Source of the DNA: Paucibacter sp. TC2R-5
GTDB lineage: Bacteria; Pseudomonadota; Gammaproteobacteria; Burkholderiales; Burkholderiaceae_C
Length of the DNA: 64,000 nt
NCBI RefSeq assembly: GCF_025717605.1
Contig: NZ_JAJIRQ010000006.1
Coordinates: forward strand, 6,015-70,014
Direction: 5' to 3'
A program made the translations under genes and the position numbers. Of the stretch, positions 20,144-42,216 are shown piece by piece. Position 1 is the first letter of the stretch. Every line of letters starts with the position of its first letter. Below the pieces are notes generated by a model, which worked only from the letters and a program-made list of their open reading frames with translations, was not told the DNA's origin and searched no databases.

Positions 20144-20150
20144 AACTAAA

Positions 20151-20717: not shown

Positions 20718-21620
20718 ATGCTCAAGACCGAATCTCCCAGCAGCTCGCATCCAGAGTTGGATCAGTACGCGCTGCCTGAGCTGATTTCCTGCTTCATCGA
20801 GGATCAGACCGACGCCGTCAATGCGGTGCGGCTGGCCGCACCTCAACTGGCGCGCGCCGTCGCCGAGGCCTTGCCGCGCATACAGGCCGGCGGCCGCTTG
20901 ATTTATGTCGGCGCCGGCACATCCGGGCGCCTGGGCGTGCTGGACAGCGTCGAGTTGCACCCGACTTTTTCCTGGCCCCATGAGCGCGCACTGGCTTTAC
21001 TGGCGGGCGGCCCCTCGGCCATGTTTGTGGCGGTCGAGGGCGCCGAAGATGATGAGCCCCAAGGCGCGCTAGACCTGCGCGCACTTCAACCCAGGGCCAA
21101 CGACGTGGTTTTGCTGCTGGCAGCCTCGGGCGCCACGCCCTATGTGCTGGGCGCGCTGCGCGAGGCCCGCCACGCCGGCGCCTTGACCCTGGGTTTTGCC
21201 AACAATCCGAATGCGCCAGTGGCCGAGTTGGCCGACATCGGCATCACCCTGGACACCGGCCCGGAAGTCATTTCGGGCAGCACGCGGCTGAAAGCCGGCA
21301 GCGCGCAAAAGATGGCGCTGAACACCTTTTCCAGCGCCTTGATGGTCAAACTGAACAAGGTCTACGGCAATCTGATGGTGGACCTCAAGGCCAGTAACGC
21401 CAAACTTGTGCGGCGTGCGCTGGCCATGACGATGCAGGCCGGCGCGGCCGATGAGGCGAGCGCGCGGGCCATGCTTGAGGCCTGCGGCAATCACGTGAAG
21501 CTGGCCGTCGTCGCGCTGCGGCTGCAGCTGCCTGTCGAGCAAGCGCGAATCGCGCTGGAACAGGCCGACAGCAACGTCAGGCAGGCGCTCGCAGGGGGCA
21601 AGGCCAGCACGCTGGCTTGA
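20718..21620 (+). CDS. murQ: N-acetylmuramic acid 6-phosphate etherase, 300 aa
   Basis: Cytoplasmic etherase that converts MurNAc-6-phosphate to GlcNAc-6-phosphate and D-lactate. SIS-domain motifs are clear: VGAGTSGRLGVLDSVELHP, the block around GAEDDEPQGA, and STRLKAGSAQKMALNTFSS followed by GNLMVDLKASNAKL, close to E. coli MurQ. The C-terminal helices carry a HVKLAVVALRLQLPVEQAR segment. It is the first gene of a same-strand run with a DUF5009 membrane protein and an amino-sugar kinase, which fits MurNAc recovery from peptidoglycan. A TTGA tetranucleotide occurs four times at the stop (21617-21632). No AnmK is present in the window. Confidence 0.96.
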   Translation: MLKTESPSSSHPELDQYALPELISCFIEDQTDAVNAVRLAAPQLARAVAEALPRIQAGGRLIYVGAGTSGRLGVLDSVELHPTFSWPHERALALLAGGPSAMFVAVEGAEDDEPQGALDLRALQPRANDVVLLLAASGATPYVLGALREARHAGALTLGFANNPNAPVAELADIGITLDTGPEVISGSTRLKAGSAQKMALNTFSSALMVKLNKVYGNLMVDLKASNAKLVRRALAMTMQAGAADEASARAMLEACGNHVKLAVVALRLQLPVEQARIALEQADSNVRQALAGGKASTLA

Positions 21621-21669
21621 TTGATTGATTGAATATGCAAGAACCCCGGCGTGAGCAAGCAGGGCCGCC

Positions 21670-22803
21670 ATGAAGCAACGCCTGCTCTCGCTGGACGCCT
21701 TCAGAGGCTTCACCATCGCCGCCATGCTGCTGGTCAACAACCCCGGTGACTGGGCGCATCTCTACCCCTCTTTGGCCCACGCCAAATGGCACGGCTGGAC
21801 CTTCACCGACTGGGTCTTCCCTTTTTTCGTGTTCATCTGCGGTAACTCGATGAGCATCAGCCTGACTCGACGCATCGAGCTCGGCGACGAGAAACTGCTC
21901 TTGCTGCGGCAAACCGCGCGTCGCGCGCTGCTCATCATCGCCCTGGGCCTGCTGCTCAACTTCATCCCGAGCTTCAGTTTGAGTGAACTGCGCATTCCCG
22001 GCGTCTTGCAGCGTTTGGGCTTGTGCACCTTGCTGGCGGCTCCGATCGTCTTGTGGTGTGGCTGGCGGGCCCAGCTGTGGTGGGCCGTCGGCCTGCTGGT
22101 CGGCTATAGCCTGATACAGCTTTACGTGCCGGTGCCGGACGCACAGGGCATCTGGCACCGCGGCTCGCTACTGCCGGGCGAAGACGTCGGCGCCTGGCTT
22201 GACCGCGCGCTGCTGGACGGGCACTTGTGGCAGCACAGCAAGACCTGGGACCCCGAGGGCTTGCTATCGACGCTGCCCGCGCTGGCAGGATTGTTGGCCG
22301 GCGCCTTGACCGGCCAATGGCTATTGAGCAAGCGCGAGCCGAGTGAAAAGCCGCAAGGCTTGATGGTGGCGGGCCTTGCCTGCCTTGGCTTGGGCGAATT
22401 GCTGAACGTCTGGCTGATGCCGATCAACAAGAGCCTTTGGACGCCGTCTTACGCAGTCGCGATGACGGGATGGGCCTTGCTCATCTTCGTGGTTTTCTAC
22501 TGGCTGCTGGACGCCATGCCCAGCGCTCGTTGGCGCAGTTGCTTGAGTCGAGGCGCCCGCCCGCTGCTGATGTTGGGCATGAATGCCTTGTTCATCTTTA
22601 CCCTGTCGGGCCTGCTGGCCAAGCTGCTGGGACACTGGCAGCTCAGCAAGGCTCAGACGCTGAAGGCTTGGCTCTACGGCCCTATATTGGCGCTCGAAAT
22701 GCGCCCCGAGAACGCCTCGCTGCTCTATGCGCTAGCCTTCACGGCAGTGCTCTGGCTGATGGCTTGGGCGCTCTGGGCGCGGCGCTGCTTTATCAAGATC
22801 TAG
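21670..22803 (+). CDS. DUF5009/NagX-like multi-pass membrane protein, possible amino-sugar transporter, 377 aa
   Basis: Inner-membrane protein with about ten hydrophobic helices, related to heparan-alpha-glucosaminide N-acetyltransferase and bacterial NagX/DUF5009 proteins. The N-terminal family signature is SLDAFRGFTIAAMLLVNNPG, followed by WTFTDWVFPFFVFICGNSM. It lies between murQ and a MurNAc/GlcNAc-type kinase. From memory, Tannerella forsythia has a murT-murK-murQ set whose MurT imports MurNAc through the inner membrane, and this protein may fill the same place. Acetyl transfer and transport cannot be separated from sequence alone. Confidence 0.82.
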   Translation: MKQRLLSLDAFRGFTIAAMLLVNNPGDWAHLYPSLAHAKWHGWTFTDWVFPFFVFICGNSMSISLTRRIELGDEKLLLLRQTARRALLIIALGLLLNFIPSFSLSELRIPGVLQRLGLCTLLAAPIVLWCGWRAQLWWAVGLLVGYSLIQLYVPVPDAQGIWHRGSLLPGEDVGAWLDRALLDGHLWQHSKTWDPEGLLSTLPALAGLLAGALTGQWLLSKREPSEKPQGLMVAGLACLGLGELLNVWLMPINKSLWTPSYAVAMTGWALLIFVVFYWLLDAMPSARWRSCLSRGARPLLMLGMNALFIFTLSGLLAKLLGHWQLSKAQTLKAWLYGPILALEMRPENASLLYALAFTAVLWLMAWALWARRCFIKI

Positions 22804-22925
22804 CTGTAGTGCTGCACCTGGCCCCACCCGGCAAGGCACTGAAACTCCGGCCCATTCTGAAAAGTTATGCCTTGCGCCCGCATTGACATTTGCTTGCTCA
22901 GCACGCCAGCCCTAGGCTGACGGCC

Positions 22926-23891
22926 ATGAATGTCGCCCCTGCCCAGTTGTCAAAAACAGCCCCGCCAACAAGTTTGGGGCTGGGCATTGATGCTGGCGGC
23001 ACGCAGACCCGCTGGGCGCTGGCCCGTGCCGGCAAGGTGTTGGCGCAAGGCGAGGTAGCCGGCCTGAGCGGCTTGCAAATGGCGGACGAGGGCGGCCGTG
23101 CCGAGTTGCGCTGCACCTTGGCTGCGCTGGCGGCTGCACTTCAACCCTACGGCCCAATAGGCGCCATCCACGCCGGCATCACCGGTTTGCCGGACAGCGA
23201 TCTGCAAGGCATCGCCGAGATGAAATGCTTGTTGGCCCAGAGCTTGGCGATGACACCGCAAGCGATCCATTGCCGCAGCGACATCCGACTAGCTTGGCAC
23301 GCCGCCTTCAGCAACAAGGCTGGCGGCTATTTGATTTATGCCGGCACTGGTTCGGTGGCCGCCTTTGTCGACTCGGAAGATCGGCTGCACCGGGCCGGTG
23401 GACGCGGCCTGCTGCTCGGGGACGAAGGCAGCGGCGGCTGGATAGCCGCCCAAGCCCTTGCCCAGGTCTGGCGCATGGAAGACGCCGCACCGGGCAGCGC
23501 CATGGCCGAGTCGGCGATGGCGCGTGCCTTGTTTGCGGCCATGGGCAGCAGCGACTGGACCAGCACCCGTGCCTATGTCTACAAAGGCTCACGCGGCCAG
23601 CTTGGTCAACTGGCCCTGGCCGTTGCCGCCAGCGCGCAGGAGGACCCGCGTGCAGCTGCGCTGCTGCGCCGCGCCGGCCAAGAGTTGGCTCGCTTGGCTG
23701 AGGCGATGGTGCAACGCTTCGGCCCGCGCCCTATCGTGCTGGCAGGGCGCGCGCTGACGCTTAGCCCGCTGATCGAACACAGTCTGCGCCAGCATCTGAA
23801 TAAGGCGCTGGGCCCGGCGGCCGACATTCAGCTGCAACAATTACAGCCGCAAAGACAGGCGGCGCTGGCCGCCGCCCTTGCGGCCCCTTGA
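22926..23891 (+). CDS. BadF/BadG-family amino-sugar kinase (GlcNAc/MurNAc kinase-like), 321 aa
   Basis: ASKHA-fold kinase. The phosphate-1 motif is LGIDAGGTQTRWALA, the phosphate-2 region is YAGTGSVAAF, and GDEGSGGWIAAQAL is typical of the BadF/NagK branch. MurK of Clostridium acetobutylicum, a MurNAc/GlcNAc kinase, is in this family. With murQ two genes upstream the likely reaction is MurNAc to MurNAc-6-phosphate, the substrate of MurQ. The start at 22926 is chosen because the upstream in-frame part (from 22890) lacks family character. The stop almost touches the next gene. Confidence 0.86.
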   Translation: MNVAPAQLSKTAPPTSLGLGIDAGGTQTRWALARAGKVLAQGEVAGLSGLQMADEGGRAELRCTLAALAAALQPYGPIGAIHAGITGLPDSDLQGIAEMKCLLAQSLAMTPQAIHCRSDIRLAWHAAFSNKAGGYLIYAGTGSVAAFVDSEDRLHRAGGRGLLLGDEGSGGWIAAQALAQVWRMEDAAPGSAMAESAMARALFAAMGSSDWTSTRAYVYKGSRGQLGQLALAVAASAQEDPRAAALLRRAGQELARLAEAMVQRFGPRPIVLAGRALTLSPLIEHSLRQHLNKALGPAADIQLQQLQPQRQAALAAALAAP

Positions 23892-23908
23892 AACTCTGCC
23901 TCCAAGCC

Positions 23909-24769
23909 ATGCCAAAAACCCTGCACTCAAAGTCCCTGCTGGCCCTCACATTGGCGCTGCTGCTCAGCGCCTGTGCCACCACGCCCGGCGGCCCCCACAT
24001 CGACCGCAGCTACAGCTCGGACAACCAAGACAGCCGGGCACTCTTTCTGGTCCTGCACTACACCGTGCTGGACTGGGAGAAATCACTGCGCGTGCTGACG
24101 AAAGGCGGCCAGGTCAGCAGCCATTACCTGGTGCGCGATGAGCCCGCGCGCAGCTATTTGCTGGTCGACGAGAACCGCCGCGCCTGGCACGCAGGCCCCA
24201 GCTTCTGGGCCGGCCACACCCAGCTGAATTCCTCCTCCATCGGTATCGAAATCGTCAACGCCGGCTATGTGGACACACCCGCCGGTCGGGTTTATGCAGA
24301 CTTCCCCGAGCAGCAGGTGCAGGAAGTGATTCGGCTGGTCAGGGACATCGTGGCTCGCCACCAGATCCGCCCCGAGCGCATCATCGGCCACGCCGATATC
24401 GCCCCTGGCCGCAAGCAAGACCCCGGCCCTAAGTTCCCCTGGAAGCGCCTGGCCGACGAAGGCATCATCCCGTGGCCGGATCTGGCGCAGGTGAAAGACA
24501 AGATCGCGCTGTTCGAAAGCCTGCCGCCGGGCGCGGCTTGGTTCCAAGACAAGCTCGCCCGGGTTGGCTACAAGCTGGCGCTCACCGGCGAATTTGATCA
24601 AGCGACCAAGGATGTGATCTCGACTTTTCAGATGAAATACCGCGCTAGCGATTACAGCGGCACGCCCGACGCCGAAACCGCCGCGCTGCTGGAGGTGATG
24701 CTGAGCCCGAACGGCATGTTGCTGAACACGCCGACTCAAGGCGCCAAGCCCTACACCCCGCGCTGGTAG
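23909..24769 (+). CDS. amiD: N-acetylmuramoyl-L-alanine amidase, AmiD-like lipoprotein, 286 aa
   Basis: Zinc amidase that cuts the MurNAc-L-Ala bond. A lipoprotein signal ends LLLSAC (Cys22; next residue Ala, which favours the outer membrane). Zinc ligands are His50 (LVLHYT), His161 (IIGHADIAPGRK) and Asp171 (KQDPGPKFPW), and the catalytic-region block IGIEIVNAG is present. A peptidoglycan-binding domain lies at about residues 205-260. A TTG at 23888 in frame is a possible earlier start overlapping the kinase stop, but ATG 23909 gives a normal lipoprotein signal. It should release sugars or peptides from exogenous or own peptidoglycan fragments in the periplasm. Confidence 0.92.
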   Translation: MPKTLHSKSLLALTLALLLSACATTPGGPHIDRSYSSDNQDSRALFLVLHYTVLDWEKSLRVLTKGGQVSSHYLVRDEPARSYLLVDENRRAWHAGPSFWAGHTQLNSSSIGIEIVNAGYVDTPAGRVYADFPEQQVQEVIRLVRDIVARHQIRPERIIGHADIAPGRKQDPGPKFPWKRLADEGIIPWPDLAQVKDKIALFESLPPGAAWFQDKLARVGYKLALTGEFDQATKDVISTFQMKYRASDYSGTPDAETAALLEVMLSPNGMLLNTPTQGAKPYTPRW

Positions 24770-24782
24770 ACGCTTAAGCACC

Positions 24783-25793
24783 ATGTTCGCCTTCATACTC
24801 AAACGACTAGCCGCTCTGCTGCCTACGCTGCTCGGCATCACGCTGGTTTCTTTCGGCTTGATCCGGCTGATCCCAGGCGACCCGATCGAGGTGATGATGG
24901 GCGAACGCAGCCTTGAGCCCGAGGCCCACGCCGCGCTGGTCAAGCAAATGGGGCTGGACCAATCTTTGCCCGCTCAGTATTGGGATTACGTCAGCAAGCT
25001 GGCGCAGGGCGATCTGGGGCAATCGCTGGTCAGCCGCGAATCGGTGGCGAGCGAGTTCGCCACGCTGTTCCCGGCCACCGTGGAGTTGGCGGTGGCCGCG
25101 CTGCTGATGGCCGTGACACTGGGTCTGCTGCTGGGCGTGCTGGCCGGGCTCAAACGGGGCTCCTGGCTGGACCAAGGCGTGATGGGCGTGGCGACGGTGG
25201 GCTACTCGATGCCAGTGTTCTGGTGGGGGCTGATTCTGATCATGTTCTTCTCGGTGCAAATGAGCTGGACGCCGATCTCCGGGCGCATCGGCATCGAGTT
25301 CGAGGTAGTGCCCATCAGCGGCTTCATGTTGTTCGACGCCTGGGTCTCGGAGGAAGCCGGCGCCTTTCGTTCGGCCTGCTTGCATCTGCTGCTGCCGGCG
25401 CTGGTGCTGGGCACCAGCACCATGGCAGTGGTGGCGCGCATGACGCGCTCGTCGATGCTGGAGGTGCTGCGCGAGGACTACATCCGCGCTGCCCGCGCCA
25501 AGGGCCTGTCACCGGCGCGCGTCATCTTCGTCCACGCGCTGCGCAATGCCTTGATCCCGGTGCTGACCGTGATCGGCATGCAGGCCGGCAGCCTGCTGGC
25601 CGGTGCGGTGCTGACCGAGACGATCTTTTCCTGGCCCGGCATAGGCAAATGGCTGATCGATTCGATTGCCAGGCGCGACTATCCCGTCGTGCAAGCCGGC
25701 ATCTTGATTTCTGCGCTGAGCTTCATCCTCGTCAACCTAGGCGTCGATCTGCTCTACGGCGTACTCAACCCGCGCATCCGCGCCTCGCATTGA
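24783..25793 (+). CDS. dppB: Dipeptide/oligopeptide ABC transporter permease, DppB type, 336 aa
   Basis: Inner-membrane subunit with six expected helices. The N-terminus ILKRLAALLPTLLGITLVSF and GDPIEVMMGE are typical of DppB/GsiC. The EAA loop that contacts the ATPases is around DYIRAARAKGLSPARVIFVH, followed by IGKWLIDSIARRDYPVVQAG. It starts 13 bases after amiD and overlaps the next permease by one base (TGATG), so it belongs to the same transcript as the amidase. That link suggests peptides from peptidoglycan as cargo. Confidence 0.94.
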   Translation: MFAFILKRLAALLPTLLGITLVSFGLIRLIPGDPIEVMMGERSLEPEAHAALVKQMGLDQSLPAQYWDYVSKLAQGDLGQSLVSRESVASEFATLFPATVELAVAALLMAVTLGLLLGVLAGLKRGSWLDQGVMGVATVGYSMPVFWWGLILIMFFSVQMSWTPISGRIGIEFEVVPISGFMLFDAWVSEEAGAFRSACLHLLLPALVLGTSTMAVVARMTRSSMLEVLREDYIRAARAKGLSPARVIFVHALRNALIPVLTVIGMQAGSLLAGAVLTETIFSWPGIGKWLIDSIARRDYPVVQAGILISALSFILVNLGVDLLYGVLNPRIRASH

Positions 25794-26722
25794 TGACCCA
25801 GGCCCTCCTCAAGCAGCAACAGGCGCAGGAGCAACTACAAGCGCCCGCATTGCCTATGCCCACTCCCTGGCGCGAGTTCTGCAGCGGCTTTGCCGCCAAT
25901 CGCGGCGCCTTGTTCGCTTTGGTGGTGTTCGCGCTGATCGCTACGGCCGCCGTGCTGGCGCCTTGGCTGGCTCCGTACAGCCCGACCGAGCAGTTCCGCG
26001 ACCATATGCTGACCCCGCCGGTGTGGGCCTCATCCGGCAGCACGCGCTTTTTGCTCGGCACCGATGAGCTGGGCCGCGACATGCTCTCGCGCCTGCTGCA
26101 TGGCGGGCGCATTTCGCTGGGGATCGCACTGGCCTCGGTGCTGCTGTCTATGCTGCCCGGCGTCAGCCTGGGGCTGCTGGCCGCCTTTCAGCCGCGCTGG
26201 CTGTCGCCCCTCATCATGCGCGTGATGGACATCATGATGGCCCTGCCGGGCCTGCTGCTGGCGATCTGTGTGATCACGGTGCTGGGGCCGGGCCTGATCA
26301 ACACGGTGATCGCGATTGCCATCGGCGCGCTGCCCGGCTATACCCGCCTGACCCGCGCCAGCGCTCTGGCCGAGATTGGCCGCGACTATGTCACCGCCAG
26401 CCGCATGGCCGGTGCCAGCTTGCTGCGCCTGATGTTCATCACCGTACTGCCTAACTGCATGGCGCCACTGATCGTGAACGCGACGCTGAGCTTTTCTTCG
26501 GCCATTCTGGAGACCGCCGGCCTGGGCTTCTTGGGCCTGGGCGTGCAGGCGCCGCTGCCCGAGTGGGGCGGCATGCTGTCGGCGGCGCGCGACTATATGC
26601 TGCGCGCGCCCTGGGTGGTGACTCTGCCGGGTTTGAGCATTCTGACCACCGTACTGGCCATCAATCTGATGGGCGACGGCCTGCGCGACGCGCTTGACCC
26701 CAAGCTGAAGGTCTTGCACTGA
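25793..26722 (+). CDS. dppC: Dipeptide/oligopeptide ABC transporter permease, DppC type, 309 aa
   Basis: Second inner-membrane subunit. The conserved blocks are [21 protein letters not shown] near the first periplasmic loop, the EAA motif [20 protein letters not shown], and [20 protein letters not shown]. An N-terminal Gln-rich segment of about 25 residues precedes the first helix. The start at 25793 shares a base with the dppB stop; the much longer in-frame reading back to 24980 runs through dppB in another frame and is an artefact. Confidence 0.94.
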
Positions 26723-27708
26723 TGGCCGCGCTGCTGACAATCAAAAACCTGCGCGTGCAGTTCGGCGCTTTCCCGGCCGTCGACGGCCTTGACCTGAGCC
26801 TGGACGCCGGCGATTTGCTGGCCATTGTGGGCGAATCCGGTTCGGGCAAGTCGGTCACCATGCTGGCCTTGATGGGCTTGATCGATGCGCCCGGCCGGGT
26901 GGCGGCGGATACGCTTGAATTCCAAGGCAGGGACATGCTGCGGATGAGCGCGGCCGAGCGCCGCAAAATCATCGGGCGCGAGATCGCCTGTGTGTTTCAA
27001 GATGCCTTGAGCAGCTTGAACCCGAGCTATAGCGTCGGTTTCCAGATCGGCGAAGTCTTGCGCGTGCATCTGGGCTTGCGCGGCGCGGCCCTCAAGCGCC
27101 GAGTGATCGAGTTGCTGGAGCTGGTGGAGATCCCTGATGCCGCGCGGCGCTCCGAGGCTTACCCGCATCAGCTCTCGGGCGGCATGAATCAGCGCGTGAT
27201 GATCGCAATGGCGATCGCCTGTGGGCCCAAGCTCTTGATTGCCGACGAGCCCACCACCGCGCTGGACGTCACCATTCAAGCTCAGATCATGGCGCTGCTC
27301 TTGCGCTTGCAGGCCGAGCAGGGCATGGGCCTGCTCTTGATCACGCATGATCTGGCCGTGGTGGCCGAGATGGCAGAAGCGGCCGAAAGTGCCCGCGCCG
27401 GCAGCAACCAGGTCGCGGTGATGTATGCCGGTCAGGTGATTGAAACCGGCGCGGCACCGGCGATCTTCGAGGCGCCCAAACACCCTTACACGGCCGCATT
27501 GCTGGCCGCGATTCCGGAACATAACCGCGGCGCCCAGCGGCTGGCGGCGCTACCGGGCATCGTGCCGGGCGCGCTGGACCGGCCCCTCGGCTGCTTGCTT
27601 GCTCCGCGCTGCGGCCAGGTGCAGCCGCGCTGCCAGAGCGAGCGCCCTGCGCTGCTGACCGGAGTGCGCTGCTTTTTCCCGCTGACAAGGAACTCAGAGC
27701 ATGTCTGA
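26722..27708 (+). CDS. dppD: Peptide ABC transporter ATP-binding protein, DppD type, 328 aa
   Basis: Nucleotide-binding subunit. Walker A is [10 protein letters not shown], the signature is LSGGMNQRV, and Walker B is [12 protein letters not shown], followed by [13 protein letters not shown]. The C-terminal oligopeptide domain has the cysteine motif typical of DppD/OppD (CLLAPRC, CFFP), which may hold an iron-sulfur cluster in some homologues. An insertion after the switch His ([13 protein letters not shown]) is slightly longer than usual. It overlaps dppC by one base and dppF by 8. Confidence 0.94.
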
Positions 27709-28675
27709 TGCCACGCCTTTGGTCCATGCGCAAGCCTTGAGCCGGCATTACAAGGTCGTGCAGGGCTGGCTGAAACCGAAAACAACGGTGAAGGCGCTCG
27801 ACGGTGTCTCCTTCCAGCTCTGGCCGCAGCGCACGCTGGCGGTGGTGGGCGAGTCAGGCTGCGGCAAATCAACGCTGGCGCGCCAGCTGACGCTGATCGA
27901 AGCCCCCAGCTCGGGCAGTTTGCAACTGAGCGGCGTGGATGTGGCTGGCGCCGACAAGCCAGCCTTGAAGGCGCTGCGCCAGCAGGTGCAGATGGTGTTT
28001 CAAAACCCTTTTGCTTCGCTCAATCCGCGCGCCAGCATTGGCGCCACGCTGGATGAGCCACTCAGCCTCAACACCTTGCTAAGCCCGGCCGAGCGGCGTG
28101 AACGCATCGAGGCGCTGGTCGCCAAGGTGGGCCTGCGAGCCGAGCATTTACAGCGTTATCCGCATATGTTCTCCGGCGGCCAGCGCCAGCGCATTGCCAT
28201 CGCCCGGGCGATGATGCTGAACCCCAAGGTGGTGGTCGCGGACGAACCGGTGTCTGCCCTCGATGTGTCGATACAGGCGCAAATCCTCAACCTCTTTCTG
28301 GATCTGCAGGCCGAGTTCAAGACCGCTTATGTCTTCATCTCCCACAACCTCAGCGTGGTCGAGCATGTGGCCGACGATGTGATGGTGATGTACCTCGGCC
28401 GCGCGGTCGAGGTCGGCCCCAAAAAGACCCTGTTCGCGCGGCCCTTGCACCCCTATACGCAAGCACTGATGAGCGCCACGCCGGCCCTGCGCGCGGCCGA
28501 CCGGCGCGTGCGAATTCAGCTCCAAGGCGAGCTGCCCAGCCCGCTCAAGCCGCCGCCCGGCTGCGCCTTCCACCAGCGCTGCCCCTTGGCGCAAGCGCGG
28601 TGCCAACAAGAGGCGCCGCAATTGCGCCCGCTTGACGGCCGGCAAGTGGCCTGCCACGTCGTCGGCAGCGCCTGA
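27701..28675 (+). CDS. dppF: Peptide ABC transporter ATP-binding protein, DppF type, 324 aa
   Basis: Second nucleotide-binding subunit. Walker A is GESGCGKST, the Q-loop [11 protein letters not shown], the signature [15 protein letters not shown], Walker [12 protein letters not shown], and switch [14 protein letters not shown]. The C-terminal OppF-type extension contains [18 protein letters not shown]. It starts within the end of dppD. With dppB, dppC and dppD it makes a complete import machine; the binding protein follows after a 119-base gap. Confidence 0.94.
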
Positions 28676-28794
28676 GCCCCTGCCCCATAATCAAAACTTA
28701 TAGACACCGGCCTTCTATTCACTTGTGGTGATGGCCTTGCGCTTTCAACAATGCGTTGGATTGCCCTCTTCCTTGCCTGCTTGGCTTGCCCCCT

Positions 28795-30387: not shown

Positions 30388-30390
30388 CCT

Positions 30391-31296
30391 ATGAGATTAC
30401 GCCATATCGAGGTCTTCCACGCCATCATGCAGGCCGGCACCATCAGCGGTGCCGCGCAATTGCTGCACATTTCGCAGCCGGCGGTGACCAAGGTCTTGCA
30501 GCATTGCGAGTTGCAGCTGCGCATGAATTTGTTTGACCGCGTGCGCGGCAAGCTCTACCCAACGCCGGAAGCACACCGGCTGTTCATCGAGGTGGACAAG
30601 CTCAACCGTGATCTGGTCGGTATCCGGCGCCTGGCGGCGAATCTGCGCAGCGGGGAGTCGGAACTGGTGCGGCTGGTGGCCACGCCGACCTTGGGCGCGG
30701 CGGTGATTCCGATGGCCATGACGCAGTGGTGCAAGGCCTTCCCGCAAAGCCATTGCTCGCTGGCCACCAACCACACGCGCGAGATCGTCTCCGCCCTGCT
30801 CTTGGGCGAGGCCGACCTGGCCTTGTCGCTGCAGGACCCGCATCACCCCGGCATCAAGGCCGAGGTGCTGGCCAGCGGCTTGATGACGGCGTTATGCCCC
30901 TTGGGCAGCCCGGAGGCCGCCGAAAGCGGGCCGCTGTCGCTGGAGCAGATTCGCACGCCCTTGGTCGGGCTGGCTGGCGATGATCCGCTCGCCGCCCTGG
31001 TGCATAGCAATGCCGAGGCGCTGGACACTCCCTTGCAAAGCCGCATCACCGTGCAGACTTATCAGCTGGCTCGGGCCTTGGTGGAAGCCGGCGTTGGCAT
31101 GACCTTGGTCGACCCATTCACCGCCGCGTCGGCCGACCGCAGCCGCGTCTGCCTCAGGCCGCTCAGCCCTGCCGTGCCGGTGCAGCTGTATCTGCTGACC
31201 ACCGCCAGCGCGCCGCTGGCCCAGACCGCGCGGCGGCTGGTGAAGTATCTGGGCGAAGCCGCCCGTAAGAGCCTGGAAGGATTGAACACCGCATGA
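30391..31296 (+). CDS. LysR-family transcriptional regulator, 301 aa
   Basis: The DNA-binding helix-turn-helix is at about residues 3-60 (HIEVFHAIMQAGTISGAAQL, then ISQPAVTKVLQHCE), followed by a periplasmic-binding-like effector domain to about residue 295. It begins 3 bases after the dppA stop and overlaps ddpX by 4 bases, so it is embedded in the operon it most likely controls. Its effector may be a muropeptide or D-amino acid, by analogy with AmpR, which is also a LysR protein that senses peptidoglycan fragments. That effector assignment is inference. Confidence 0.92.
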   Translation: MRLRHIEVFHAIMQAGTISGAAQLLHISQPAVTKVLQHCELQLRMNLFDRVRGKLYPTPEAHRLFIEVDKLNRDLVGIRRLAANLRSGESELVRLVATPTLGAAVIPMAMTQWCKAFPQSHCSLATNHTREIVSALLLGEADLALSLQDPHHPGIKAEVLASGLMTALCPLGSPEAAESGPLSLEQIRTPLVGLAGDDPLAALVHSNAEALDTPLQSRITVQTYQLARALVEAGVGMTLVDPFTAASADRSRVCLRPLSPAVPVQLYLLTTASAPLAQTARRLVKYLGEAARKSLEGLNTA

Positions 31297-31932: not shown

Positions 31933-31951
31933 GCCCACTAGAGCGGCTCGC

Positions 31952-32860: not shown

Positions 32861-32891
32861 AGGTTTGAAGTCGAAAAGCCAAAGGCGCTGT

Positions 32892-34370: not shown

Positions 34371-34688
34371 GTGGTGTCGCGGCAAGCTCTGAAGACAAAG
34401 CCCAGGTCGGATATCCACACGCCTGGGCCTAACAAGCGCCAATGTAGCCTTAGGTCGAGGCGGCGACCGACTTTGGCCTATGAATTCTTGTGCGCCCTGC
34501 GTCTGTTGCAGGCATAGCCCCACGCCGGCGCATTCCAACAGGTTATGTGTGCACCTCAAGCATTCATTGCGATCTAAGCAACAAATGCGGTCAACCCCTC
34601 TGGCCGGCGCCGCAGTCCTAACGGATCATGGATTGGACATTGCAACACCCCACCCTCCCCATCCTTCCTCTAGTCCCGGAGCTTCCCG
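34371..34688. promoter_or_regulatory. Divergent regulatory region between dacB and the TonB-dependent receptor
   Basis: I see no gene in these 318 bases. A 7-bp perfect stem (34400-34406 with 34422-34428) lies in the dacB leader. Promoters for both directions are expected, but I find no confident -10/-35 pair. A GGAG-containing Shine-Dalgarno candidate precedes the receptor ATG by about 9 bases. Confidence 0.4.
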
Positions 34689-37535
34689 ATGAAATTGAAC
34701 ACCTTGACACGCAAACTCGCGCTGATCGGCCTCGGCGGCCACCTCAGCTTGATCGGCGGCATGGCCTTGGCTCAAAGCAGCGAGGCGGTGCAGAAGATTG
34801 AACGCGTTGAAGTGCTCGGCTCGCGCATCAAGCGCCTGCAAGACGAAGGCGCTTTGCCGGTACAAGTGATCACAGCGGCGCAGTTGGCGCGTGACGGCAT
34901 CGTCTCGGCCGAGCAGCTGATGGGCCGCATCACCTCCAACGGCAATGGCCTGGACAATATGGCCAGCCAGTCCGACGTGGTCGGCGGCGATGCGCGGGGC
35001 AATAACGGGGCGAGCTTCGCCAACCTGCGCGGCCAGGGTTCGCGCAATACCTTGGTGCTGCTGAATGGCCGGCGCATCGCTGCCCACGGCCTCAATGGCA
35101 CGGCCGTCAACCTCAACACCATTCCGATGGCCGCGATCGAGCGGGTTGAAATTCTCAAGGACGGCGCCTCCGCGCTCTACGGCACCGACGCCATCGGCGG
35201 CGTCATCAACTTCATCTTGAAGAAGGACTTGAGCGGCCTCAATGTCCAAGCCTTCACCGACATGGCCCAAGAAAGCGGCGGCAATATCACCCGCTTGTCG
35301 GCCTCCGGCGGCATCGGCAATCTGGCCACCGATGGCTATAACGCGATGTTCGCGCTGGCCCGCACCGAGAACAAAATCCTCAAGGGCACGCAGCGCGACT
35401 TCGTCAATACCTTCCAGCCCGACCGCGGCTTGTCGGTCGATACGCGCGGCACCCCGGTCGCCACGGTGTTTGCCCGCGCAGGGCTGACCACCATCCTGAG
35501 CCCCAGCAGCTCGGGCGTGCTGCTGCCCGGCGGCACGCAGCGCTATAACGGCATCAATATGCTGGGCTTGCCCGGCGCTGCGGGCTGCCAGACCATGCCT
35601 AACTCGCAAGCCTACGACGCCAAGCTCTGGGCCTCGCCGGGCACCGAATATGGCTGCGCCTGGGACACGGGCGTGTCGGCCACGCTGCAGCAGCCGGTCA
35701 CCAACACCAGCTTTGTCGGCCGCCTCAGCAAGAGCTTTGGCGAGCATCTGCTAACGGCCGAATTCGTCGGCGCCAAAATTGACTCGGCCAAGGAGTTCTC
35801 CGAGGTCCAGCTGATCTCCAGCAGCACCAACAAATACCTCTACCCCAGCACCGGGGCTTCATACAACGCCGTGTTTGATTCGATCGTCAAGGTCTTCCCC
35901 AGCATCGCGGCCAACAAGGGCAACCCGATTGCATTCCGCTGGCGTTGCATGGATTGCGGCCCGCGCGAAATTGCCACCGAGACCGAATCGGCACGCTTCT
36001 TCGTTGGTCTGGACGGCCCGCTGCCCTGGGCCGGCTGGGACTATAAAACCGGCGTCTCCTCGGCCTATAGCGATGACAAGTCCAAGCTCGGCAGTGGCTA
36101 CTACTTCCGCGACGGCATGGTCGCCGCCATCGGGTCCGGCAATCTCGACCCATTTTTGCTGCCCGGCAAGGCGCAAAGTGCGGCCGGCCTGAGCGCGCTG
36201 GAGGCCGCCTCGGCCCGCGGCGTGACCCTGTATGGCGGCAAATTCGAGGTCCTGCAGGGCGACTTCTCGGCCAGCGGGCCGGTCGCCAAGCTGCCGGCCG
36301 GCATGATGATGGCGGCCGTCGGCCTTGACCTGCGGCGCGAGAAGTTCAACTTCAAGGGCGCCGACGGTGCGCCCAATGGCGCGGTGGTGATCGCCGCACC
36401 ATTTGACTCCAGCAATGCGGTGGACGGCGTCACCCGCGATGTCAAGGCTGCCTATGGCGAGTTGATGATCCCGGTGCTGAAGAATCTGGAAGTCACCGCC
36501 GCCGTGCGCACCGATGACTACACCGGCTTTGGCCGCACCACCAATCCAAAGGTCTCGGCGCGCTTCGCCCCGGTGGAATCGCTCGCCTTGCGCGGCTCCT
36601 ATTCCACCGGCTTTCGGGTCCCCACCTTCAACCAAGCCTTGAACGGCGCCACGCGCTCACCCTTTGACGGCAAAGACCTGGTCGACCCGGCCGCTTGCCC
36701 AAGCTTGGTGGTCAACCCGAACAATCCGAAATGCGTGGCGGTGTTCCCGGACATCGTCAACGGCGGCAATATGAAGCTGGGCCCCGAGACCTCCAAGCAA
36801 GCGGCCTTTGGCCTGGTCCTGGCGCCCTTCCAGCAGACCTTGCTGTCGCTTGATTGGTGGCAGATCGAGCGCAGCGACGCGATTCGCACGCCCTCGCTGG
36901 ACGAGTTGAAGAACAACTACAGCCGCTTCCAGGATCGCTTCTTGCGTGATCCGAGCGGCAACCTAGTCGGCGTTGACCAGCGCTGGTTCAATGCCGGCGG
37001 AGCCAAGTCCTCAGGCCTGGAGCTGAGCGCCTCCACCAGCGGAAAAGCGCTGGCGGGCACGTGGTCGGCCAGCCTGGAGGGCTCTTACCTGCTGAACAAG
37101 AAGTCGCGCATCTCGGATACTGACCCTTGGGGCCCGAGCGAGTTGGGACAGTTCAACCGCTATGACGACCCCGGCATCCGCTGGAAGCATGTGGCCAACC
37201 TCACTTATGCCCAAGACAGCTGGAGCAGCACCTTCACGCAGCGCTATACCGGCGGCTATACCGACGCGGTGTTGCCCGGCGTGGCCAACGGCACGGTCAA
37301 GCCGGCCAATTGGCAGGCCGACGTCAAGTCCTATATCGTCTATGAACTCTCGGCCACCTATCGCGGCTTCAAGAACCTGAGCGTGACCGGCGGCATCAAG
37401 AACTTGTTCAACACCAAGCCACCGTTCAGCGCTTACTACGACGCCGATCTCGGCTCGGGCAGCTCCTGGGACCCTCGTGTGGCCGATCCGCGTGGCCGCG
37501 CCTTCACCTTGCTGGTGGACTACAGCTTCAAGTAA
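34689..37535 (+). CDS. Large TonB-dependent outer-membrane receptor, 948 aa
   Basis: Outer-membrane active transporter. The signal peptide ends ALA-Q at about residue 28. The plug shows VEVLGSRIKRLQDEGALPV near the start, NLRGQGSRNTLVLLNGRRI, and ILKDGASALYGTDAIGGVIN; the barrel ends in TLLVDYSFK with a C-terminal aromatic-type signature. The size and plug are those of receptors for large or complex substrates (peptides, glycans) rather than simple siderophores. It is surrounded on both sides by peptidoglycan hydrolases and peptide uptake genes, so peptidoglycan fragments are the most economical guess for its cargo. A terminator follows at 37590. Confidence 0.93.
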   Translation: MKLNTLTRKLALIGLGGHLSLIGGMALAQSSEAVQKIERVEVLGSRIKRLQDEGALPVQVITAAQLARDGIVSAEQLMGRITSNGNGLDNMASQSDVVGGDARGNNGASFANLRGQGSRNTLVLLNGRRIAAHGLNGTAVNLNTIPMAAIERVEILKDGASALYGTDAIGGVINFILKKDLSGLNVQAFTDMAQESGGNITRLSASGGIGNLATDGYNAMFALARTENKILKGTQRDFVNTFQPDRGLSVDTRGTPVATVFARAGLTTILSPSSSGVLLPGGTQRYNGINMLGLPGAAGCQTMPNSQAYDAKLWASPGTEYGCAWDTGVSATLQQPVTNTSFVGRLSKSFGEHLLTAEFVGAKIDSAKEFSEVQLISSSTNKYLYPSTGASYNAVFDSIVKVFPSIAANKGNPIAFRWRCMDCGPREIATETESARFFVGLDGPLPWAGWDYKTGVSSAYSDDKSKLGSGYYFRDGMVAAIGSGNLDPFLLPGKAQSAAGLSALEAASARGVTLYGGKFEVLQGDFSASGPVAKLPAGMMMAAVGLDLRREKFNFKGADGAPNGAVVIAAPFDSSNAVDGVTRDVKAAYGELMIPVLKNLEVTAAVRTDDYTGFGRTTNPKVSARFAPVESLALRGSYSTGFRVPTFNQALNGATRSPFDGKDLVDPAACPSLVVNPNNPKCVAVFPDIVNGGNMKLGPETSKQAAFGLVLAPFQQTLLSLDWWQIERSDAIRTPSLDELKNNYSRFQDRFLRDPSGNLVGVDQRWFNAGGAKSSGLELSASTSGKALAGTWSASLEGSYLLNKKSRISDTDPWGPSELGQFNRYDDPGIRWKHVANLTYAQDSWSSTFTQRYTGGYTDAVLPGVANGTVKPANWQADVKSYIVYELSATYRGFKNLSVTGGIKNLFNTKPPFSAYYDADLGSGSSWDPRVADPRGRAFTLLVDYSFK

Positions 37536-37589
37536 TACAGCTTCAAGCGAAACTCAGGGCCGCTGCGGCGGCCCAAGTGCTGTGAACAA

Positions 37590-37623
37590 AGCCCCGCCAG
37601 CTTGCGCCGCGGGGCTTCTTTTA
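37590..37623 (+). terminator. Bidirectional terminator between the receptor gene and ldcA
   Basis: A 9-bp stem (AAGCCCCGC at 37590-37598 with GCGGGGCTT at 37610-37618) and 11-base loop, followed by CTTTT. It lies between convergent genes and can serve both. Confidence 0.8.
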
Positions 37624-37642
37624 TGTCAGCTCGATGTGCGCT

Positions 37643-38557: not shown

Positions 38558-38558
38558 A

Positions 38559-39743
38559 TCAGCTGCCCAAATAGGCCCGCAAGCCGCTGTCTATGGCCGC
38601 GCCCAATGCCGGCAGCTTCCAGGTCGTGGCGGCGCGTGGATCGGGTGCGTAGCGACTGCCCAGATTGCTGGTCAGCGCAATCAGGTAATGGCGCTTGGCA
38701 GGGGCCAGGCCGCGCACGATGCCGGCGTCGGCTGTGTAGTTTTCGGTATTGCCGGTCTTGTGCGCAAACAGCACTTCGGCCGCCGGCATCGATTCTGACT
38801 CTGATGCAGCCTTACTTTGCCAACGCTGCGGCAGCTGCGCCGGCAGCCCAGGCACCCAACCGGGCAAGCCGAGCAAGGACGCGCTGGACAAAACCTCATG
38901 AAGCGACTGCTGCTCCAGGCAGAACATCACATGGGCATGGCTGGCGCCGAGCAGTGGCGCATGGCCAGCCGGCAACCAGGGGGCGGGCGGCGCCTGCGCG
39001 TCCAGCAACCAGAGCAGGCGCAAGCTGTCCCACGCGGTCATCTGCAAATGCCCAACGCCGGCACCGGCAGCATTGCCCCAGCCGCCGTCGGCGCGGGTAT
39101 TGGCCAGCCGCAAGCTGCTCAGGCCAAGCTCAGCAAACAGCAGATGTAACTCGTTATGCACCTCGACCGAACCCTCGCGCCGAATCGCGCCGCAGGCGTG
39201 CAAATGCATGATGAGCGCCGAGGTCGAGCGATTGCAGCTGATCGCCGTCATATCAAAAGCCCAATCGCTTAAGGGGCGAGCGCTGCCGTCGAAACTCAAA
39301 ACCGCCGCCCAGTCACTGCGTCCTTGATCAACCAGCCTCGCCACGCCGACCAACACCATCAGCTTGAGCAAGGAGGCCGGGTAAGGCGCCACAAAGCGCT
39401 GCGGGCCGCTGCCCGTCAGCGGCGTCCACGGCAGGCCGGACCAATCACTGCCCGGCAACCACGCGATGGAGCGGCCCTGCTCGTCTTGCAGATCGGCCAC
39501 AAAACGGATGTTTGACACCGACGCCGCTGGCCCCAGATCGGCAATCAGTCCCTCGGGCTGCTCGCGCGAGAACAGCACATTGGCAAACACCGGCGCTGCG
39601 CCGGGCGCAAACGCGGCCACCGCCAGGTCTATGCTGGGGAACTGCGCCAGCGGCGCGCCGCCCTGCATCGCATCGGGCGTGGCCTCAAAATGCTGCGCGC
39701 GCACGGCTGCGAGCAGCAGCTGCGCCAAGTCTTCATGCCTCAT
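38559..39743 (-). CDS. Class A beta-lactamase-like serine hydrolase without signal peptide, 394 aa
   Basis: Penicillin-recognising fold of unclear substrate. The motifs are SxxK (Ser124-Lys127 in PASLLKLMV), an SxN equivalent (Ser169-Asn171 in ISCNRST) and KTG (329-331 in FAHKTGNTENY). About 100 residues precede the catalytic domain and contain no secretion signal, so the protein seems cytoplasmic, unlike true beta-lactamases and PBPs. It sits between dadA (15 bases upstream) and ldcA (1 base downstream). A role in cutting D-amino-acid-containing peptides after import, for example as a D-aminopeptidase or D,D-peptidase, is a reasonable guess; antibiotic resistance is not supported. Confidence 0.82.
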   Translation of the reverse strand: MRHEDLAQLLLAAVRAQHFEATPDAMQGGAPLAQFPSIDLAVAAFAPGAAPVFANVLFSREQPEGLIADLGPAASVSNIRFVADLQDEQGRSIAWLPGSDWSGLPWTPLTGSGPQRFVAPYPASLLKLMVLVGVARLVDQGRSDWAAVLSFDGSARPLSDWAFDMTAISCNRSTSALIMHLHACGAIRREGSVEVHNELHLLFAELGLSSLRLANTRADGGWGNAAGAGVGHLQMTAWDSLRLLWLLDAQAPPAPWLPAGHAPLLGASHAHVMFCLEQQSLHEVLSSASLLGLPGWVPGLPAQLPQRWQSKAASESESMPAAEVLFAHKTGNTENYTADAGIVRGLAPAKRHYLIALTSNLGSRYAPDPRAATTWKLPALGAAIDSGLRAYLGS

Positions 39744-39758
39744 TGCGGCTCCGCTGGT

Positions 39759-41018
39759 TCAGGGATATTGCAGACCTTGCAGGTCGATCGGGCTGGCGCG
39801 CCCCGCGACCAGTTCGGCCACGATATTGGCCGTGCCAAACGAGAAGGTAAAGCCCAATGCACCATGGCCGACATTGAGCCACAAATTGCGCACGCCCGAA
39901 GCGCCCAAGATCGGCGCGCCACTGGGCGTCGCCGGGCGCAGCCCGGCCCATTCGGTGGCCAGCGCATAGTCGGCGGCCTGGGGAAAGGTGGCCAACACGG
40001 TGCGACGCAGCGAGGCGATGCGAGCCGGGTCAATGCGCTCGTCATCGCCCACCAGGTCGACCATGGCCGCTACCCGCAAGCTTTCGCCAATGCGGGCGTA
40101 AACGACTTTTTTCTCAAAGTCGGTCACGCTGACCAGGGGCGGGCGATGTTGCGCAGCGATCGGCGCCGTCAGGCTATAGCCTTTCAAAGGGTAGATGGGC
40201 AGCTTGATGCCGGCGCTCAAACCCAAGCCCCGACTCTGCAGGCCGGCGGCAAGCACAAAGTGCTCGGCGGCGATTTCTCCTGCACTGCTGCGCAGCGCCA
40301 CGGCACTGCCGGCGCGCAGCACGAAGCCCTCGGCATTGGCACGCAGCAGACCGCGAAAGTTGGTGTGCTTTTGCAGTCGCTGCAGCAGCAAGTCGCAAAC
40401 CCGGCGGCAATCGGCCACCGCCTCACCGGCGGTGAAGATGCCACCGGCCAAATGGGCATCGCTGAAGCCCAGCGCCGGCTCCAACGCCACGCACTCATCA
40501 TGCGACAAGGCCTGCTCCGGCCCGACCTTGCCGGCATTTGCCTGCGCGGCGATGCGAGCCGCCACGCGCGCGAACTCCTGCGGCTTGCGGTAGACCACCA
40601 GCTTGCCTGGCTCGCGCAAGGCGATCTCATCCAGACCGGCCTCACTTCGCAAGGCGTCAAAAGCGGCATGGCTGTAGGCGCCCAGCGCCAGCAAGCGGTC
40701 CGTCATACGACGGTTGACCGGGCCTCGGCAGGCACGCAGGAAGTCAAACATCCACGACCATTGCTGCCAGCGCAACTCGGGCTTGAAACGCAAGGGGCCG
40801 TCGGCATCCAGCAGCCAGCGCAGCGCCTTCAGCGGCACGCCCTCGTCGGCCAAGGGCGAGACATAGCGATAACTCAACTGCCCTCCATTGGCTTGGCTGG
40901 CACCCGCAGCAACCTGGCTCGCACGCTCGACCAGGGTCACCGCCAAGCCCCGCTCGGCCAGGGCCCAGGCTGTCGTCAAGCCGACGATGCCGCCGCCAAT
41001 CACCACACAATGCTGCAT
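39759..41018 (-). CDS. dadA: D-amino acid dehydrogenase (DadA-like, FAD-dependent), 419 aa
   Basis: Flavoenzyme that deaminates D-amino acids, typically D-Ala to pyruvate, feeding electrons to the respiratory chain. The FAD motif is VVIGGGIVGLTTAWALAERG, followed by QANGGQLSYRYVSPLADEG-type sequence in two parts (GASQANGGQLSY, VSPLADEGVP), which is characteristic of DadA. The C-terminus has GLRPATPSGAPILG and NLWLNVGHGALGFT. The start at 41018 places the motif at the N-terminus; longer readings upstream are not conserved. It leads an operon with the serine hydrolase and ldcA, which fits recovery of D-Ala released from peptidoglycan. Confidence 0.92.
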   Translation of the reverse strand: MQHCVVIGGGIVGLTTAWALAERGLAVTLVERASQVAAGASQANGGQLSYRYVSPLADEGVPLKALRWLLDADGPLRFKPELRWQQWSWMFDFLRACRGPVNRRMTDRLLALGAYSHAAFDALRSEAGLDEIALREPGKLVVYRKPQEFARVAARIAAQANAGKVGPEQALSHDECVALEPALGFSDAHLAGGIFTAGEAVADCRRVCDLLLQRLQKHTNFRGLLRANAEGFVLRAGSAVALRSSAGEIAAEHFVLAAGLQSRGLGLSAGIKLPIYPLKGYSLTAPIAAQHRPPLVSVTDFEKKVVYARIGESLRVAAMVDLVGDDERIDPARIASLRRTVLATFPQAADYALATEWAGLRPATPSGAPILGASGVRNLWLNVGHGALGFTFSFGTANIVAELVAGRASPIDLQGLQYP

Positions 41019-41196
41019 CGGGATTCTTCTAGGTTTGATTGATGCGTCAGCGTAAGCACAAACATGCACCGGAGCCAATGAAAGCAGCGGCGGCAACCAT
41101 AACTTCGCCATATGGCCGCTGGCCGATTAGCTCATCGACGCAAGGCCGCAGCGGGCCCAAAATACACTCACCCGATACCTATACAGAGAAGGCCGC

Positions 41197-42192
41197 ATGA
41201 GCTTCGACAATCACCCCACCCATCTGCGCATCCACCAATATGCGGGCCTCAAATCCGGCCCCAAATTGCTGGTGACCGCGGCTGTGCATGGCAACGAGAC
41301 CTGCGGCGTCAGCGGTATCGAGCAGGTGATGGCCGCCCTGGACAGCGGTGCCTTGCAGTTGCTGCGCGGGACGCTGACCTTTGTGCCCATCGCCAACCCG
41401 CTGGCCCACCAACTGGGCCGCCGCGAAGGCGAGCGCAATTTGAACCGCAACCTGCACCCGGCCGTGATTGCGCAAGATTTCGAGGACCGCGTCGCCGCGC
41501 GGCTGTGCCCGCTATTGGCCAGCCATGATGTCTTGCTGGATCTGCATTCCTTCCAGAGCCAAGGCCAAGCATTTGTGATGTTAGGTCCGCAGGACAACGC
41601 GGGCGATCTTGAGCCCTTTGCGCATGCCAGCGCCGAAGCGGCACTGGCCAAATGCCTGGGGCCCGCGCGTATTGTCGAAGGCTGGCTATCCACCTATGAA
41701 TTGGGTCTGCGCCGGCGTGCGGCAAACAAGCACGAAGCATTCGCCCCAAGGCAAGACTTGACCCTGGACCCGCATTACGGCGTCGGCACGACCGAATACA
41801 TGCGCAGCCAAGGTGGCTACGGTGTCACCTTGGAATGTGGTCAGCATCTCGACCCGCAGGCGCCCGAGGTGGCACGTTTGGCCATCCTGCGCAGCATGGC
41901 CCTGCTCGGTTTGATATCGCCCGAGTCTGCTCCGGCGCAGCAGCCGAGCCGGCCCGCCGAAGTGCTGCAGCTGTATGAGGTGATCGACAGGCAGCACTCG
42001 GACGACCGCTTCGAGCAAGCCTGGACCAGCTTTGACGCGATCTCGAAAGGCCAGAAAATTGGCACGCGTCACGACGGTAGCGCGGTGCTGGCGGCTGCGG
42101 ATGGCCGCATCGTGTTCCCCAATAGCAAGGCTTTGCCGGGCCAGGAGTGGTTTTATTTGGCGCGGCCTAGCCCGCGCGATTTGAGCGCCTAG
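41197..42192 (+). CDS. Succinylglutamate desuccinylase/aspartoacylase-family zinc hydrolase, 331 aa
   Basis: Predicted metal-dependent amidohydrolase related to M14 carboxypeptidases. Zinc ligands are His and Glu of AAVHGNETCG and a downstream His in VLLDLHSFQSQG; REGERNLNRNLHP supplies the substrate-binding arginines of the family, and GVTLECGQHLDP carries the likely catalytic Glu. It is divergent from dadA with 178 bases between starts and has a GAGAAGG site before the ATG. Its substrate is unknown; the neighbourhood suggests an amide bond in a peptidoglycan-derived peptide or amino acid conjugate. It is not part of an astABCDE operon, so simple AstE is unlikely. Confidence 0.84.
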   Translation: MSFDNHPTHLRIHQYAGLKSGPKLLVTAAVHGNETCGVSGIEQVMAALDSGALQLLRGTLTFVPIANPLAHQLGRREGERNLNRNLHPAVIAQDFEDRVAARLCPLLASHDVLLDLHSFQSQGQAFVMLGPQDNAGDLEPFAHASAEAALAKCLGPARIVEGWLSTYELGLRRRAANKHEAFAPRQDLTLDPHYGVGTTEYMRSQGGYGVTLECGQHLDPQAPEVARLAILRSMALLGLISPESAPAQQPSRPAEVLQLYEVIDRQHSDDRFEQAWTSFDAISKGQKIGTRHDGSAVLAAADGRIVFPNSKALPGQEWFYLARPSPRDLSA

Positions 42193-42216
42193 TTGAGCGA
42201 TTAAGCCTCTAGCGAC

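Follow-up and report, generated by a model that had tools for sequence, protein, structure and literature searches.

Positions 20718–42192 of the 64,000-nucleotide stretch of Paucibacter sp. TC2R-5 DNA analysed here (the window; it lies on contig C42 of a 5.13-Mb genome assembled into 45 contigs) probably hold a regulon for the catabolism of peptidoglycan fragments that is accessory and under LysR control. Pfam and NCBIfam profile scans of the open reading frame translations place 18 genes there, in the order murQ, HGSNAT/NagX-like, BadF kinase, amidase (ami), dppBCDF, dppA, lysR, vanX/ddpX, mepA, dacB, TonB-dependent receptor (TBDR), ldcA, bla, dadA and asp. They form five strand blocks: murQ to vanX on the plus strand, mepA and dacB on the minus strand, the TBDR gene on the plus strand, ldcA, bla and dadA on the minus strand, and asp on the plus strand. 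Peptidoglycan enzyme families make up the majority of the 18; lysR, the TBDR gene, the dpp genes and the NagX-like gene belong to generic families that are compatible with such a role. An earlier note, made from the sequence alone, had described a dense cluster of peptidoglycan enzymes, which the family scans support, and the families that it named were all found where it placed them. Its count of fifteen genes in four strand blocks is at odds with its own list of 18 and with the five blocks counted here, and its 'DUF5009 protein' is a membrane protein that scores 20 bits against the DUF5009 cut-off of 25 and 39.8 bits against the HGSNAT_cat cut-off of 22. The first-start-codon frames of dacB, dadA, murK and dppA start too far upstream, and starts were refined by codon score. 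The features are as follows; operator scores refer to a position weight matrix (PWM) trained without the window.

20628–20644, no strand: predicted LysR-type operator upstream of murQ (AATTACCTGCCGTTATG); 11.9 bits (11.1 with another background), second-best in the 64 kb
20718–21620, plus: murQ, N-acetylmuramic acid 6-phosphate etherase; NF003915 355.9 bits (cut-off 168), TIGR00274 296.1 bits (just below the cut-off of 302)
21670–22803, plus: HGSNAT_cat/NagX-like membrane protein ('murT' from position only); PF07786 39.8 bits, NagX model 182.4 of 480 bits
22853–22869, no strand: possible operator upstream of the kinase gene (CATTCTGAAAAGTTATG); exact match to a degenerate pattern, PWM 6.2 bits
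22926–23891, plus: BadF-type sugar kinase (murK), probable N-acetylmuramic acid (MurNAc) 6-kinase; PF01869 59.8 bits, codon-score start
23909–24769, plus: AmpD/AmiD-type N-acetylmuramoyl-L-alanine amidase with a peptidoglycan-binding domain; PF01510 103.6 bits, PF01471 31.4 bits, lipobox LSAC read from the sequence
24783–25793, plus: dppB permease; Pfam, NCBIfam
25793–26722, plus: dppC permease; Pfam, NCBIfam, codon-score start
26722–27708, plus: dppD ATPase; Pfam, NCBIfam
27701–28675, plus: dppF ATPase; Pfam, NCBIfam
28686–28702, no strand: possible operator upstream of dppA (CATAATCAAAACTTATA); fits the degenerate pattern at all but one position, PWM 7.4 bits
28795–30387, plus: dppA-type peptide-binding protein (SBP_bac_5); DppA model 522.8 bits (cut-off 1005), nearest solved chains are dipeptide-binding proteins
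30391–31296, plus: LysR-type regulator, candidate reader of the operator; PF03466, PF00126, best NCBIfam model PRK11013 at 129.6 of 288 bits
31293–31901, plus: VanX/DdpX-type (M15) D-Ala-D-Ala dipeptidase, signal peptide not evident; PF01427 93.7 bits, PRK10178 144.3 of 176 bits
31952–32899, minus: MepA, M74 murein endopeptidase; PF03411 337 bits, PRK09429 358.8 bits
32892–34370, minus: DacB/PBP4-type (S13) DD-carboxypeptidase/endopeptidase, probable lipoprotein; PF02113 278.5 bits, TIGR00666 209.9 bits, lipobox LGGC read from the sequence
34531–34547, no strand: predicted LysR-type operator between dacB and the TBDR gene (CATTCCAACAGGTTATG); 19.3 bits, highest in the 64-kb window
34689–37535, plus: TonB-dependent outer-membrane receptor; PF00593 131.8 bits, PF07715 67.6 bits
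37643–38557, minus: LdcA, S66 LD-carboxypeptidase, signal peptide not evident; PF17676 119.2 bits, PF02016 107.8 bits
38559–39743, minus: 'bla', PBP-A-like active-site-serine enzyme (Beta-lactamase2-like), probably cytosolic
39759–41018, minus: DadA-type D-amino acid dehydrogenase; PRK00711 402.5 bits (cut-off 383)
41098–41114, no strand: weak possible operator between dadA and asp; differs from the degenerate pattern at one position, outside the 25 best PWM matches
41197–42192, plus: asp, AstE/AspA-type zinc hydrolase, candidate gamma-D-Glu-meso-diaminopimelate amidase (MpaA/Csd4-like)
19896–20143, plus: two tandem tRNA-Asn genes at the left border, a landing site outside the regulon

A predicted operator shared by cluster promoters

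Unsupervised motif discovery in 22 promoters of five relatives, a training set that excluded the window, yielded CATnACCnnnGGTnATG, a LysR-type palindrome of the form CATAACC-N3-GGTTATG, with a log-likelihood of 129.5 compared with 66.5 for the next distinct solution. Across 24 held-out loci, the window among them, the single best match to this motif fell inside a cluster promoter 16 times, where 0.57 would be expected by area; these loci share phylogeny and are not independent. None of 300 column-permuted motifs reached 16 (mean 1.14, maximum 5). The held-out test left out G396 (vanX only), G473 (vanX and asp only), the loci on contigs C12 and C6 of the same genome as the window and the five training genomes, and it scored as a miss G068, which has lysR and whose best site lies in a short stretch that the promoter mask left out, although it is placed between GHL10 and dadA. 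Within the window, the two highest-scoring matches in 64 kb lie in the dacB/TBDR promoter and the murQ promoter.

The motif was present in 14 of the 15 loci with a cluster lysR in the fetched stretch, compared with 2 of the 9 without it (p = 7e-4), 7 of these 9 being stretches of at most about 21 kb, outside which lysR may fall. L039 and L018, counted as lacking lysR, both appear to stop short of its expected position, and in G308 and G450 (35–40 kb fetched) neither a cluster-type lysR nor the motif was found. Because the motif accompanies lysR across loci, the cluster LysR is the likely reader of the palindrome. T-N11-A spacing is the usual shape of a LysR box, and the arrangement is that of a LysR-type regulon, with a regulator gene and a shared T-N11-A palindrome predicted before several units, strongly at two window promoters and weakly at three. 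The best named relative of the cluster LysR, PRK11013, is the E. coli lysA regulator responding to diaminopimelate (DAP), hence our guess that the ligand may contain DAP.

Plain enumeration of 5-bp palindromes turned up an excess, but a weak one (4 genomes, compared with maxima of 2–3 in base-composition shuffles). The degenerate pattern, allowing at most one mismatch, matched 36 of 82 relatives' promoters, compared with a shuffle mean of 2.4 (maximum 6) and 4 of 181 control intergenic stretches, and 5 of its 12 window matches fell within the 1,099 cluster intergenic bases. Since this pattern was shaped after viewing the window and its relatives, its counts are partly circular, and the held-out PWM test is the clean one.

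Conservation, distribution and genomic site

The clustering is kept in Roseateles, Mitsuaria, Pelomonas, Paucibacter, Ideonella, Rubrivivax and some Oxalobacteraceae, and bla used as bait recovered 33 loci from the named genome collection, all betaproteobacterial as titled. The relatives' gene maps show the same neighbours in differing gene orders and strand arrangements. In Ideonella (L036, L042) the genes are packed as asp-dppFDCB-ami / dadA-bla-ldcA-dppA-lysR-vanX-ldcA2, while in G301 those of the run murQ-ampG-nagX-GHL10-murK-ami-dppB touch or overlap, start to stop, suggesting a single transcript. Among 12 relatives' clusters in long stretches, all contained ami, lysR, vanX, an exported ldcA2, dacB, the TBDR gene, bla and dadA (bla by construction, the clusters having been reached through it), 11 contained murQ, AmpG, NagX-like and GHL10 genes, 10 the kinase gene, and 9 the dpp genes and ldcA. 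G357, picked by vanX, has the cluster without bla. Relatives add to the cluster an AmpG-like permease, a GHL10 (DigH-type) glycosidase, DigH being a GHL10 protein, and an exported LdcA. The earlier note had staked its proposal in part on co-regulation of the blocks and on conserved clustering in relatives; since a common predicted operator precedes several blocks and the relatives' maps retain the clustering, both expectations are borne out in silico.

The family sample comprised 200 genomes, this one included; 19 of them (in 15 of 141 genera) have bla and 46 have a vanX match, the genome itself being counted in both. Among the 199 other family genomes, vanX was matched in 18/18 with bla and in 27/181 without it (Fisher p = 1e-13), and in 17 of those 18 the two genes share a contig, 5.4–39.9 kb apart by coordinates transcribed by hand. 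In the order sample, 3 of 250 genomes matched: the genome itself, a second at 53% identity and a third with a weak fragment containing stops. The same-genus genome G420 gave neither a bla nor a vanX match. Because bla is patchy in both samples and G420 lacks both genes, we regard the locus as accessory.

To the left, the locus is bordered by the tandem tRNA-Asn pair and a small glutaredoxin/GST-like frame, and to the right by ferritin, a PEP-CTERM protein and SecA. The same-genus genome G294 has no cluster at this site: its counterparts of the left neighbours, the two tRNA-Asn genes, ferritin and SecA lie in one stretch, with a leucine-rich-repeat/kinase-like frame (its nature read from the sequence) in between. 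The cluster of G294 instead adjoins n14-n0-n21-n22, n21 being presumably queA, and within the 80 kb fetched there the murQ-murK block does not accompany the other cluster genes. In the window's genome, the 30 kb representing the counterpart of that site yielded no cluster gene. The AmpG-like and GHL10 (DigH-type) genes of the window's genome form an overlapping pair on another contig (C12:163,565-166,395; L104:13566-16396), between n4 and n35, which flank clusters in other genera. The two empty sites and the position of the AmpG/GHL10 pair on C12 argue that the locus has changed place relative to G294, perhaps splitting on the way. The 40 kb fetched from G420 contain ferritin and SecA together but yielded no match to the tRNA-Asn pair or to the left neighbours.

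An integrative element at tRNA-Asn is unsupported: no exact repeat of at least 12 bases, on either strand, links the tRNA region (19890–20300) to the right border (41901–42720), and no integrase occurs among the window genes scanned (frames scanned in part). Recent transfer from a distant lineage likewise lacks support, as a concatenated tree of five cluster proteins from 15 genomes joins the window with G294 (support 65) and then G314 (93), and the SecA tree joins the window and G294 (support 100). The tandem tRNA-Asn genes (19896–20143; C1 of G294, L154/L155) border a variable site, holding the 21-kb locus here and the leucine-rich-repeat/kinase-like frame in G294. Beyond the borders, an Ice-binding-like adhesive domain protein with a PEP-CTERM motif adjoins SecA (43730–44713; 41–47% identical in two same-genus genomes), and a further TonB receptor (17661–19859) follows sulfate-assimilation genes and a tetrapyrrole methylase.

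Proposed route and its enzymes

The cluster could work as follows. The TonB receptor would admit peptidoglycan fragments; in the periplasm, MepA and the PBP4-type DacB would cut cross-links and terminal D-Ala, the lipoprotein amidase would free stem peptides from MurNAc, and the Dpp-type ABC importer would take up the peptides. Release of D-Ala or D-Ala-D-Ala in the cytosol would fall to LdcA, VanX and probably the PBP-A-like bla product; DadA would oxidise the released D-Ala, and the AstE/AspA-type enzyme would split the remaining iso-peptide. The BadF kinase would phosphorylate MurNAc, and MurQ would convert the product into N-acetylglucosamine 6-phosphate (GlcNAc-6-P), which a separate nag locus (NagA, NagB-II-like) would feed into central metabolism. 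The blocks would be switched jointly by LysR, whose ligand may be a fragment containing DAP or D-Ala; we infer both the receptor cargo and the sensor ligand. The earlier note had called this a complete route, which goes too far, since the window's cluster contains neither a glycan-cleaving enzyme nor a muropeptide permease. No L-Ala-D-Glu epimerase or dipeptidase was identified among the scanned genes either, and no genome-wide search for one was made.

MurQ and the BadF kinase are encoded in one predicted operon with one gene between them (20718–23891). That gene encodes the HGSNAT_cat/NagX-like protein rather than a MurT-type member of the sodium symporter superfamily; by family it is acetyltransferase-like, not a known transporter, and the histidine of its HAxW[HD]G motif is kept in 12/12 sequences, window included. 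The nag locus on contig C6 (L106, C6:5000-24999) contains a BadF kinase, a GntR regulator, NagA (TIGR00221 262.9 bits, above cut-off), a NagB-II-like gene (274.3 of 430 bits), GH3, an AmpG-fold permease and a NagX-like gene, and its presence means that GlcNAc-6-P from MurQ can reach central metabolism. The permease, the NagX-like gene and the BadF kinase of this locus make it a parallel to the first cluster genes.

The bla product has a class A fold, and its highest-ranking fold match is PBP-A (PDB 2j7v), which is described as a DD-peptidase. Its SxxK, SxN and KTG motifs are present in an alignment of 28 sequences (S124/K127 invariant; S169 invariant and N171 at least 90%; K329/G331 invariant and T330 at least 90%). 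In the same set, no Glu column is invariant or at least 90% conserved, as a conserved deacylating omega-loop glutamate would be, and no hydrophobic N-terminus or export signal was seen by eye. On these grounds, together with the fold match, a beta-lactamase was rejected. Because bla and its aligned homologues have no evident signal peptide, the enzyme is probably cytosolic, a point of difference from PBP-A. VanX matches the PF01427 profile and carries SxHxxGxAxD and EWWH, the VanX/DdpX family motifs, although it scores below the NCBIfam equivalog cut-off (144.3 of 176 bits).

A more specific version, which we offer tentatively and would not expect to hold in every part, is a Burkholderiales peptidoglycan-utilization regulon with TonB import of peptidoglycan fragments, LysR sensing of a peptidoglycan-derived peptide at CATAACC-N3-GGTTATG, and a cytosolic PBP-A-type serine DD-peptidase that would strip D-Ala from imported stems with LdcA and VanX, kept off during synthesis of the cell's own pentapeptide precursors.

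Alternative readings and related systems

The gene content has a catabolic bias, MurQ, DadA and VanX being predicted to destroy building blocks instead of re-using them. This bias, the TonB receptor and the accessory distribution favour feeding on external peptidoglycan over salvage of the cell's own turnover fragments. Such salvage by merely clustered genes, as with enterobacterial AmpG/AmpD/LdcA, would explain why LdcA and the amidase are recycling families and why an AmpG-like permease lies within the cluster in 11/12 relatives. We nevertheless consider it unlikely: D-Ala-D-Ala and D-Ala would be degraded, no Mpl- or MurU-type re-use gene occurs among the 18 genes, to which the search for them was confined, the TonB receptor is found in 12/12 clusters, and bla is patchy (19/200) and absent from one same-genus genome. 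The self-recycling kinase, AnmK, is encoded outside the locus, on C34; a second S66 peptidase is on C1. A response to cell-wall stress or beta-lactams, with an AmpR-like LysR and bla as beta-lactamase, would suit the LysR regulator with its T-N11-A palindrome and the class A fold, but it is highly improbable given the properties of bla set out above (no export signal by eye, no near-invariant Glu column, PBP-A as top match) and a remainder made up of transport and catabolic genes. Dpp, DadA, VanX and LysR would also serve for D-dipeptides generally, and some fetched clusters lack the dpp genes (G257, G268, G274) or the murQ-murK block (G294), as might be expected of a general D-amino-acid and peptide scavenging regulon with peptidoglycan as one source among several. 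The amidase, PBP4-type, MepA, LdcA and murQ families are related to peptidoglycan, however, and the strongest predicted operators stand at dacB/TBDR and murQ, which makes this broader function improbable.

Several observations weigh against a dedicated peptidoglycan regulon. The best motif match lay outside cluster promoters in 8/24 held-out loci, which are related by descent; the comparison with loci lacking lysR leans on short stretches; and the window operators at dppA (7.4 bits), murK (6.2 bits) and dadA/asp (at most 5.5 bits) are weak by PWM. The kinase is nearer in sequence to NagK (1zc6, 47.8 bits) than to solved MurNAc kinases (8zo3, 30.9 bits; 8ow9, 23.8 bits). AmpG, GHL10 and an exported LdcA2 are missing from the window's cluster; the AmpG-like protein encoded on C12 falls below the AmpG model cut-off (192.6 of 350 bits), and the PWM scan found no good operator upstream of the C12 pair, whose membership of the regulon we therefore reject. 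MepA is peculiar to the window (0/12 relatives' clusters), and asp occurs in 2/12 (G301, G274); asp is also found in L036, L038, L041, L042, L045, L046 and G068, and adjoins vanX in G473. The TBDR slot is variable, at about 36–78% identity to the window's receptor, and the outer-membrane part of the cluster seems to have been swapped among relatives. A second, Oar-like TonB receptor (assigned by eye; no NCBIfam match) lies between GHL10 and the kinase in 4/12 clusters (L085:5347-8778 and relatives).

The catabolic regulon for peptidoglycan fragments that we favour resembles several known systems in part. E. coli ddpXABCDF encodes a D-Ala-D-Ala permease and dipeptidase, and here too a VanX/DdpX gene adjoins a peptide ABC importer, but the importer here resembles DppABCDF, and a peptidoglycan-degrading cluster surrounds the module. 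Bacteroidetes polysaccharide utilization loci unite outer-membrane import, periplasmic cutting and a regulator in one locus, as the window does; in contrast, the window's locus concerns peptides over glycan and uses an ABC importer, its receptor scores 28.2 of 368 bits against the SusC model, and no SusD family (Pfam) occurs among the 18 genes. The nearest described system, as far as the passages compared show, is the ampG-murTKQ operon of Tannerella forsythia (Tanf_08345-08385), which scavenges environmental muropeptides (PMC5388701, PMC5790795). The logic is common, with MurQ beside a BadF-family MurNAc kinase, while parts and regulator differ: AmpG is in that operon and in the cluster of 11/12 relatives, but on C12 here; MurT is a sodium symporter superfamily member, whereas the window has the HGSNAT/NagX-like protein; and the regulator is the hybrid two-component GppX instead of LysR. 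Those passages mention no Dpp importer, VanX, DadA or DacB as belonging to the operon. Agrobacterium YejBEF-YepA is likewise an ABC importer of peptidoglycan fragments in a Gram-negative, described for muropeptides (PMC9790009), but it is a different transporter, and the passages compared describe no peptidoglycan-catabolic cluster. E. coli DigH is described as a denuded-glycan hydrolase (PMC12288456); a GHL10 protein adjoins murQ/murK in relatives and AmpG in this genome, although outside the window, and its catabolic role is one that we infer. Caulobacter nag clusters are described as holding TonB receptors, one of them shown to carry GlcNAc (PMC13046382).

Among the matches listed in the literature searched, with subscription papers outside its scope, no comparable Burkholderiales locus or operator turned up, and the only dedicated, regulated peptidoglycan-scavenging locus was that of T. 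forsythia. Peptidoglycan is part of dead bacterial matter. If the proposed function is true, the cluster would offer a defined, testable Burkholderiales system with one regulator, one operator and one candidate outer-membrane receptor for peptidoglycan fragments, and it would add one unstudied family of cytosolic penicillin-binding-type enzymes.

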